Origin: Chthonomonadaceae bacterium
Lineage (GTDB): Bacteria; Armatimonadota; Chthonomonadetes; Chthonomonadales; Chthonomonadaceae
Assembly (NCBI GenBank): GCA_025054835.1
Contig: JANWZQ010000164.1
Location: 1 to 57,728 of the forward strand
Length of the DNA stretch: 57,728 bases
Direction of reading: 5' to 3'
In this document: positions 36,250-55,500 of the stretch, piece after piece
How the letters are laid out: every line of letters begins with the position of its first letter
How positions within the stretch are numbered: position 1 is the stretch's first letter
Program-made: the position numbers and the translations under genes
Notes under the pieces: model-generated
Databases searched by the model: none
The model's input: only the letters and a program-made list of their open reading frames with translations
Told to the model about the DNA's origin: nothing

Positions 36250-36362
36250 CCCACGCGACGCGCGTGACTGGCGTTCACGAAGAGCACTTCGGGGGAGCGC
36301 GCGCCGCAGAGATGTGCCGCACGCCTGGGCCACCTGCAACCTGCGGGCCCCGGCGTTTTTTC
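36250..36362 (+). promoter_or_regulatory. ZTP/ZMP riboswitch (pfl motif) with overlapping terminator
   Basis: The leader contains the conserved pfl elements: CGCGTGACTGGCG (36261-36273), the GGGGGAGCGCGCG stretch (36291-36303) and CGCCTGGGC (36323-36331 region). Immediately after it, the sequence around 36343-36355 can pair back with CGCCTGGGC to form a GC-rich hairpin ending in TTTTTT (36356-36361). The aptamer 3' half and the terminator stem therefore compete. In this class, bound ZTP or ZMP (AICAR) stabilises the aptamer and lets transcription continue. Downstream purH consumes AICAR, as expected. Confidence 0.9.
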
Positions 36363-36410: not shown

Positions 36411-38036
36411 ATGTCCCGGCAACCAGACGGAACACGACGTGCCCTCATCAGCGTCTCCAATAAAACCGGCCTCATCCCCTTCGCGCAGGGTCTCATCCAG
36501 CTTGGCTTCCAGATCCTCTCCACAGGAGGCACGGCCCGTACCCTCCGCGACGCGCAGATCCCGGTCACTGACGTCGAGCAAATCACCGGATTTCCCGAGA
36601 TGCTCGACGGGCGCGTTAAAACCCTCCACCCGGCAGTCCACGGAGGCATCCTCGCCGACCGGAGCAAGCCCGATCACCTGCAGGCTATCGCGCAACAGGG
36701 CATCGCCCCCATCGATCTCGTCTGCGTTAACCTCTATCCCTTCACCACCACCGTCGCCCGACCGGACGTCACGCTGGAAGAGGCCATCGAGAACATCGAC
36801 ATCGGCTGCCCCGCCATGATCCGATCGGCGGCCAAAAACCACACCAGCGTCATCGTAGTAGTACATCCGGAGGACTACACAGCACTTCTGACCGAACTGC
36901 AGGCGCACAACGGCGACGTCACGCCTGCCACGCGCCGCGCTCTGGCCGTCAAGGCCTTCGAGCACACCGCGCAGTACGACGCACACATCAGCGCATGGAT
37001 GCGCCAGCGCTTCCTTACAGAGCCCGACTCGACCACCGACAGCGCCCCGTTCCCGCAGGAGCTCACTCTGGCCCTCCACAAGGTGCAGGACTGCCGCTAC
37101 GGCGAGAACCCCCATCAGAAAGCTGCCTTCTACGTCCAGCAAAACCTCACCGAGCCCTGCGTCGCCACCGCGCAGCAGATCCATGGCAAAGAGCTCTCGT
37201 TCAACAATCTCTACGACCTGAATGCCGCGCTGGAAACCGCCAAAGAGTTCAGTGAAGAGCCCCGGCCCGCCGCAGTCATCATCAAGCACGCCAACCCCTG
37301 TGGCGTTGCCCTCGGGGACACCCTCGCCGAAGCTTTTCAGAAAGCCCGTGAGGCCGATCCCGTATCCGCCTTCGGAGGGATCCTTGCCGTGACACAACCC
37401 ATCGACGTCGCCACTGCCGAAGAGATCACCGGCAGAAACACCTTCTTCGAGGCCATCATCGCGCCCGGGTACGCGCCAGAAACCATTCCCATCCTGACCG
37501 AACGCAAAAAATGGGGAGCCAGTCTGCGCCTGCTGCAGGTCGACCCGCTCCACGGATGGCGTGCGAAAACCACTGCTACCGGCTACGACTTCAAACGCAT
37601 CACCGGTGGACTGCTCCTGCAGACCCCCGATCACCACGAACTCACCCCGGATGCCCTGCAAACCGTCACCGAACGCGCCCCGACAGAGGAAGAACTGCAG
37701 GAACTGCTCTTTGCCTACCGGGTGGTCAAACACGTCCGGAGTAACGCCATTGTCCTCAGTCGAAACCGACAGACCATCGGCGTGGGCGCAGGACAGATGA
37801 ATCGCGTGCAATCGGTACGCATTGCTGTGGAGCAGGCCGGGCAGAAAGCCCGTGGCGCCGTCATGGCCTCCGATGCCTTCTTCCCCTTCCCGGATGGCCC
37901 GGAGGTCGCCGCACAGGCCGGCATCACCGCGATCATCCAGCCGGGGGGCTCTGTCAAAGACGCAGAGACCATTGCCGTGGCCAATCGCTGCGGCATCGCC
38001 ATGGTCTTCACTGGCGTGCGGCACTTCCTCCACTGA
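36411..38036 (+). CDS. purH: Bifunctional AICAR formyltransferase/IMP cyclohydrolase
   Basis: A 541-residue enzyme catalysing the last two steps of IMP synthesis. The N-terminal cyclohydrolase domain (methylglyoxal-synthase fold, about 8-200) shows [29 protein letters not shown] and [18 protein letters not shown]. The C-terminal transformylase domain has [27 protein letters not shown] and [11 protein letters not shown]. It ends FTGVRHFLH, the usual PurH C-terminus (RHFRH or similar). The ATG has a strong AAAGGAG site. Its own promoter and ZTP riboswitch place it under purine-intermediate control. It converges with the oxidoreductase gene after 15 bases. Confidence 0.95.
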
Positions 38037-50801: not shown

Positions 50802-50855
50802 TTTCGCAAATTACCCTGAGGATCGTGTGTTGTTCTGCCGAGAATAGACCTGAAC

Positions 50856-51003
50856 GACGATGTAAAAGGCAAACCCACAGAAATGTGGGGACGCAAAGCC
50901 ATGGGCCTAAGAGGAAGCATCAGATGGACGCCCGGTGAGGCGTTCCTCCCGGGGGTCCGAGAGGTTTGTTACCAGCGCTCCTGATGGCTGCCAGGTTGCC
51001 GTC
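50856..51003 (+). promoter_or_regulatory. Cyclic di-GMP-I riboswitch (GEMM) upstream of flgM
   Basis: The aptamer core is unmistakable: AAAGGCAAACC (50865-50875), a hairpin closed by CCCAC/GTGGG with a GAAA tetraloop (50880-50883), and GGGACGCAAAGCC (50888-50900). Then GGGCCTAAG, and the 3' block GGCTGCCAGGTTGCCGTC (50986-51003). P1 is GACG (50856) with CGTC (51000). The second arm, between CCTAAG and GGCTGCC, is unusually long: CATCAG/CTGATG closes more than 50 bases containing nested GGAC/GTCC and CCCGG/CCGGG pairs. Downstream are an ATAGCG-CTCG-CGCTAT hairpin (51014-51029) and the flgM ribosome site GAGGAGG (51041). CCTC at 51003-51006 could mask that site, so translational control is possible. 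Confidence 0.92.
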
Positions 51004-51056
51004 CTCTGCAGGGATAGCGCTCGCGCTATTCGTTTCCTTTGAGGAGGCAAAGATCC

Positions 51057-51374
51057 ATGAAAATCTCAAGTGAGGAAGTGGGCCGCTTGCTGGCTACTGC
51101 TCCGTCGGGTCGGGGCAATGCGCGTGTAGCCACAACGCCTGCTTCACCTGCGCAGGAGAGCTCCGGGAGCCGGGAGGCGGCTCTGGTGGAGGTCTCCCCG
51201 ACAGCGCAGGAGATCCAGCAGATCAAACGACTGGTCCATCGGTTGCCAGATGTTCGTGAGGACCGGGTGCGCTCTTTGAAGGCGCAGATTGAGAGCGGCA
51301 CGTACCATGTCAGCGGAGAGGACATTGCGGATCTGATGATCCGGCGGATGCTGGCGGACAATTCGCTTCTCTAG
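51057..51374 (+). CDS. flgM: Anti-sigma-28 factor FlgM
   Basis: A 105-residue protein with a disordered Ser/Ala/Pro-rich N-terminal half. Its C-terminal half is the FlgM domain: IQQIKRLVHRLPDVREDRVRSLKA, then IESGTYHVSGEDIADLMIRRML. FlgM holds sigma-28 (FliA) inactive until the hook is complete and FlgM is exported. The ATG has a strong GAGGAGG site. It is monocistronic here: a c-di-GMP riboswitch lies upstream and a strong terminator downstream, without the flgN and flgK that often follow. It links intracellular c-di-GMP to late flagellar gene expression. Confidence 0.92.
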   Translation: MKISSEEVGRLLATAPSGRGNARVATTPASPAQESSGSREAALVEVSPTAQEIQQIKRLVHRLPDVREDRVRSLKAQIESGTYHVSGEDIADLMIRRMLADNSLL

Positions 51375-51435
51375 GAGAACTCACACGACTGTATATTGCT
51401 TCCGAAGGTTCTGAGGAACCGCGGGGTGCAGGGTG

Positions 51436-51472
51436 ACAGACAGAGGGCATGCTCTCTGTCTGTTTTTATTTT
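51436..51472 (+). terminator. Strong Rho-independent terminator of flgM
   Basis: A 10-bp perfect stem (ACAGACAGAG at 51436-51445 with 51454-51463), eight-base loop, followed by TTTTTATTTT. A smaller GGTTC/GAACC hairpin lies just upstream (about 51408-51421). Confidence 0.9.
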
Positions 51473-55384: not shown

Positions 55385-55500
55385 CCTCTTATCTTGCAGC
55401 ACGTAACTGCCCGGAATTAGCACCTGCCCGTCATGGCTGGCATGCGGGTGGTTGTTGTGGCGTCATCGGGCCGGTCCCTCGGCCACTCTGGATAAGAAGG
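55385..55500 (-). promoter_or_regulatory. SAM riboswitch (S-box/SAM-I clan) controlling metK
   Basis: Read on the minus strand, the element starts CTTCTTATCCAGAGTGGC, then CGAGGGACCGGCCCGATGA, ACAACC, GGTGCTAATTCC, and closes with GATAAGAGG. P1 is formed by CTTATC near 55495 and GATAAG near 55390. These are the conserved S-box blocks (the usual core is GAGGGACTGGCCC.ATGAA, then GGTGCTAA.TCC). Bound SAM would favour the downstream terminator. Differences such as GATGACGCC in the P2-side kink suggest a variant of the clan. Confidence 0.87.

Follow-up and report, generated by a model that had tools for sequence, protein, structure and literature searches.

c-di-GMP is the motile-to-sessile signal, and FlgM holds back the late flagellar genes; both this signal and the FlgM/sigma-28 checkpoint rank among the best known motile-to-sessile controls, and the two are usually joined through several protein steps. 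The question raised by the locus at positions 50,856 to 51,374 of the stretch of DNA analysed here (57,728 nucleotides from a Chthonomonadaceae bacterium, hereafter called the window) is whether the two are joined by a single RNA and, if so, in which direction c-di-GMP acts on FlgM.

The aptamer and its gene

Detection of c-di-GMP-I RNAs was done by using the Rfam covariance model RF01051, which matched the window once (50858-51003, forward strand) with 74.8 bits and an E-value of 6.8e-13 and was aligned over its full length (model positions 1-87 of 87). The score lies far above the gathering score of 35 and bears out the first-pass annotation, which had recognised a GEMM-I core shortly upstream of flgM and had proposed this covariance-model check; the start that it gave to the element, 50856, is also the first base of P1. 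No second RF01051 match was found anywhere in the source genome (97% complete), and the search for c-di-GMP-II gave no match in the source genome or in any control genome, so that this negative carries no information. The aptamer (50856-51003, forward strand) comprises P1, in which GACG at 50856-50859 pairs with CGTC at 51000-51003, P2 (50874-50889) and a long P3. The second arm had been described as unusually long, and the length of the aptamer agrees with this (146 nt in the window, compared with 86-140 nt in the relatives of the same order). Because both the length and the sequence of the P3 arm vary freely among the relatives, the long P3 looks like an embellishment that the aptamer tolerates, and an extended P3 as a functional element was rejected, the arm not being conserved.

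The RNA almost certainly belongs to the c-di-GMP-I aptamer class, which is in itself an ordinary class, and is predicted to bind c-di-GMP. Altered-specificity variants are known in this class, such as GEMM-Ib of Geobacter, which has an A at position 20, and the ligand might accordingly be another cyclic dinucleotide, e.g. cAMP-GMP. The window, however, keeps the equivalents of all of the Vc2 ligand-contact positions G20, A47 and C92 (PMC11218506), mapped by alignment to G50869, A50896 and C50999, respectively, and the source genome encodes 14 GGDEF domains, which makes this other ligand extremely improbable. On the basis of the GGDEF domains, of four flagellin-domain matches and of two FliA-class sigma factors above the cut-off, the source organism should make c-di-GMP and flagella. 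The two sigma factors, of the FliA/WhiG class, were located at G000:C163:42045-42716 and G000:C37:3493-4155, and several relatives likewise have two of them above the cut-off.

The gene downstream of the aptamer (51057-51374, forward strand) encodes the anti-sigma-28 factor FlgM with 105 amino acids. Its earlier identification was upheld by PF04316 (68.1 bits, cut-off 25) and by the equivalog model TIGR03824 (62.9 bits, cut-off 40.75). As had also been claimed, flgM is monocistronic with a strong terminator behind it, because a terminator-like stem with a T run is present at 51435-51464 (forward strand; 13-bp stem, 4-nt loop and then TTTATTTT) and proC, which comes next, is encoded on the opposite strand. 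The aptamer, which lies directly before the FlgM gene, is very likely to control flgM directly, and the riboswitch link proposed earlier from c-di-GMP to the sigma-28 checkpoint stands. Two riboswitches of other classes were detected elsewhere in the window, namely a SAM riboswitch (RF00162, 73.2 bits, 55386-55498, reverse strand) upstream of a metK-like gene and a ZTP riboswitch (RF01750, 59.3 bits, 36254-36337, forward strand) upstream of a purH-like ORF (36411-38036).

Promoter and conservation across Armatimonadota

Boxes of the TAAAG-N15-16-CCGATAA type were sought for the prediction of sigma-28 promoters. Upstream of the RNA, the relatives have CCTAAAG, a spacer of 15-16 bases and CCGATAAT, which is the FliA (sigma-28) type, and in the window a promoter of this type, with the boxes CCCTGAGG and then GCCGAGAAT, precedes the RNA at 50814-50845 (forward strand), with one -10 base off the consensus. 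When a promoter matrix was built from the flgM promoters of 36 relatives without the window's own sequence, this site obtained the highest score when both strands of the window were scanned (13.3 bits, the next one being 9.8 bits), and in one genome-wide pattern search it was the sole strict-pattern promoter match in the source genome. The promoter regular expression matched 33 of the 49 leaders, versus 0.03% of the mononucleotide-shuffled leaders; near flagellin and fliA genes, only 2 of 17 fetched stretches were matched by the same expression. The sigma-28-type promoter is likely used for flgM and, because it precedes the RNA of this gene, flgM probably belongs to the late genes that FliA transcribes.

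Conservation was estimated in 291 Armatimonadota genomes, among which RF01051 was present in 173 and FlgM in 215. In at least 49 genomes, the riboswitch immediately precedes flgM in the same orientation, at 166-263 nt before the FlgM domain. A second model, built from 37 of these flgM-linked aptamers, added 27 further sampled genomes in which the RNA precedes flgM, among them ones with degenerate aptamers (17-57 bits) in families f14-f18, a group that includes Fimbriimonadia. The search of related genomes suggested by the first-pass annotation thus recovered the arrangement in at least 76 sampled genomes of 17 families (f1, f2, f3, f8, f9, f14-f19, f26 and f31-f35), and the aptamer, the gene behind it and their conservation are direct results of the computation. 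The 37-aptamer model gave no match at the sampled flgM loci of f20, f36-f39, f41-f43 and f45, and likewise none at some of the flgM loci sampled in other families. A direct search for FlgM homologues in named genomes gave no match. The degenerate aptamers of f14 and f15 (L102-L116, 17-57 bits), several of which have an altered P2 and loop, may have a changed ligand affinity or specificity.

In the window's order (31 genomes), the riboswitch-flgM pair was present in 18 genomes, in 13 of which the flgM switch was the sole c-di-GMP-I match counted, and 11 genomes had neither flgM nor the riboswitch, and also no flagellin and no FliA above the cut-off. G046 had flagellin and FliA matches but neither flgM nor the riboswitch was detected in it, for which joint loss and an assembly gap are candidate readings; G035 had a tandem riboswitch, with no flgM and no flagellin. 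The tandem c-di-GMP-I aptamers of G035 were located at 2001-2091 and 2169-2264 of L077 (reverse strand), followed by a strong terminator-like stem.

Genomes outside the phylum were reached through a pattern that combined a sigma-28-like box with a GEMM core, and none of the 27 non-Armatimonadota flgM loci in 26 genomes, a small sample, had such an RNA. In some outside-phylum genomes, a c-di-GMP-I RNA together with such a box was located before genes other than flgM. In a Bacillota genome, a c-di-GMP-I RNA (L217, 374-468, reverse strand) is located behind a sigma-28-like box (CTAAAG ... CCGATAAT) and before a CheY-like receiver gene.

Expression platforms and the predicted sign

In the window, an anti-Shine-Dalgarno (anti-SD) strand, UUGCC(g)UCCUC at 50996-51006 (forward strand), overlaps the 3' strand of P1 and can pair with the Shine-Dalgarno (SD) region GAGGAGGCAA at 51041-51050 (forward strand) through ten possible pairs with one bulged G, the two strands being joined by a central hairpin at 51012-51031 (forward strand). 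The anti-SD strand shares 51000-51003 with P1 and C50999, the C92 equivalent, with the ligand site, and because the anti-SD helix takes C50999 it excludes the ligand-bound P1; these mutually exclusive base pairs are likewise given by the computation. The AGGCAAA within the SD region occurs also in the 5' strand of the aptamer, and therefore both compete for one partner. A repeat of the aptamer 5' strand near the start codon was rejected as a general rule, being clear in families f1-f3 and not general.

Since 28 of 136 other SD-like regions of the window pair with the P1 strand equally well or better, the single-sequence argument for the anti-SD pairing is weak, and the anti-SD claim therefore rests on a comparative test with 12 genera (one leader each), in which cognate anti-SD and SD strands paired better than strands mixed between genera (p 0.0005). 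By pair counting, 86.6% of the cells of the anti-SD helix were paired, versus 45-65% when the helix was slid, and its covariation score was reached by 4 of 500 shuffles. Fold z-scores of 13 f1-f3 leaders ranged from -2.05 (the window) to -5.01. Nearly all of the 18 f1-f3 leaders have an outer helix over the SD and then a central hairpin whose sequence differs by genus; the anti-SD helix and this hairpin are present in 18 of 18, and in the G048 leader the SD helix is reduced to its inner portion.

The hairpin at 51012-51031 scores as terminator-like, with an 8-bp stem followed by GTTTCCTTTG, and transcriptional control would follow if it were a terminator regulated by the aptamer. However, the T run behind it is weak and interrupted, the stem leaves the P1 strand unused, and the relatives have at the same place a hairpin of unrelated sequence with no T run. 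On these comparative grounds the hairpin was rejected as a terminator, and transcriptional control at this position is very unlikely.

For the translational platform with the anti-SD helix, the constrained fold of the window without ligand gave -83.5 kcal/mol for the OFF state and -79.9 kcal/mol for the ON state, both states retaining P2 and P3, and by inference nanomolar ligand binding should suffice to invert this energy order. The unconstrained fold of the whole window leader gave a pairing that differs from the proposed one. In the modelled ON state of the window, the SD is only 18% unpaired owing to a local hairpin (GTTTCCTTTGAGGAGGC, -5.5 kcal/mol), which, according to the model, may partly cover the ribosome site even in this state. 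In most f1-f3 relatives, with the exception of G037, the SD opens further when the P1 strand is held (0.25-0.78 unpaired).

A second type of platform was found in families f31, f32 and f35, where in 17 of 17 leaders a downstream strand can pair with the aptamer 5' strand GGCAAACTCTTCG, in which the G20 equivalent lies. The resulting helix (-13.7 to -22.7 kcal/mol) is followed by a T-rich tract, and in the folding models it looks like a terminator that is formable only with an unfolded aptamer. The f33 and f34 leaders (L138, L140 and L141) have a similar strand, and folding showed no clear switch in the platforms of f8, f9 and f19. Because the OFF structures of both platform types consume a ligand-contacting base (the C92 or the G20 equivalent), the ligand should turn the switch ON in both.

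The opposite sign, an OFF switch in which the ligand lowers FlgM and favours late flagellar genes, for instance through the local SD hairpin, can refer to this hairpin covering the SD of the window while the P1 strand is held, and to Cd1 of C. difficile, the best known flagellar c-di-GMP-I case, which is OFF (PMC5386303). However, Cd1 represses a flagellar structural operon, so that motility falls with an OFF switch at that operon just as it does with an ON switch at flgM; moreover, the alternative helix takes a ligand-contacting base in both platform types, and holding the P1 strand opens the SD in most f1-f3 relatives. An OFF switch is thus unlikely, and the ON sign, with c-di-GMP raising FlgM, is predicted with considerable confidence. 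The sign had been left unclear earlier, with the remark that an ON switch would suit the repression of motility, and the comparative evidence on the platform now favours ON. The first-pass annotation had noted neither the sigma-28-type promoter before the RNA, nor the anti-SD helix, nor the recurrence of the arrangement in much of the phylum.

The proposed circuit and known systems

It is likely that flgM is expressed from a sigma-28-transcribed monocistronic mRNA, the leader of which is a translational ON c-di-GMP-I riboswitch. Sigma-28 itself would transcribe this mRNA with its riboswitch leader. Without ligand, 50996-51006 would pair with the SD at 51041-51050, FlgM would not be made and sigma-28 would be active; with c-di-GMP bound, P1 would keep the strand, the SD would be freed and FlgM would be made, by which sigma-28 and the late flagellar genes would be shut. 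Ligand binding in vivo, the use of the promoter, and the sign and the size of the effect are what we infer in this scheme. Because the RNA would exist only while sigma-28 works, the loop would be a negative feedback loop with its gain set by c-di-GMP, provided that flgM is transcribed by sigma-28 as a late gene. On a wider scale, the balance inclines slightly towards the conserved flgM RNA switch being the main genetic route from c-di-GMP to late-flagellar shutdown in many flagellated Armatimonadota, with the platform rebuilt at least twice (translational anti-SD and terminator-like), the sign kept ON and the sigma-28/FlgM checkpoint acting as a second-messenger-gated feedback loop.

One short RNA would thereby connect c-di-GMP straight to the FlgM/sigma-28 checkpoint, in a phylum whose motility control has hardly been studied, and a predicted sign that is kept while the platform changed would offer a natural experiment on which properties of a riboswitch are maintained by selection. 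In the open-access literature, to which the search was largely confined, neither a riboswitch at flgM nor a study of riboswitches in Armatimonadota was found, and the target, the circuit and the phylum-wide conservation look new.

Compared with the GEMM-I class (Vc2 of Vibrio cholerae, and Bc1 and Bc2 of Bacillus thuringiensis), the window RNA has the same aptamer, the GAAA tetraloop and the conserved ligand contacts, but it differs from these examples in its target, which consists of the single gene flgM preceded by a sigma-28-type promoter, and in its P1-strand anti-SD platform and long P3 arm. In Clostridioides difficile, Cd1 is an OFF, terminating c-di-GMP-I switch on the early flagellar flgB operon with a sigma-A promoter, and flgM is a sigma-D-dependent late gene (PMC5386303). 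Both Cd1 and the window RNA are c-di-GMP-I riboswitches by which motility is lowered at high c-di-GMP, as is predicted here for the latter; whereas Cd1 is OFF and acts on the flgB operon, the switch in the window is predicted to be ON and its target is an anti-sigma factor. In E. coli, flgM is controlled post-transcriptionally by the sRNAs OmrA and OmrB, and lowered FlgM raises the class III genes (PMC7549644). As with OmrA/OmrB, the synthesis of FlgM would here be controlled post-transcriptionally and would set the activity of sigma-28; unlike the riboswitch of the window, OmrA and OmrB are trans-acting, work with Hfq and have no small-molecule sensor, and they lower FlgM.
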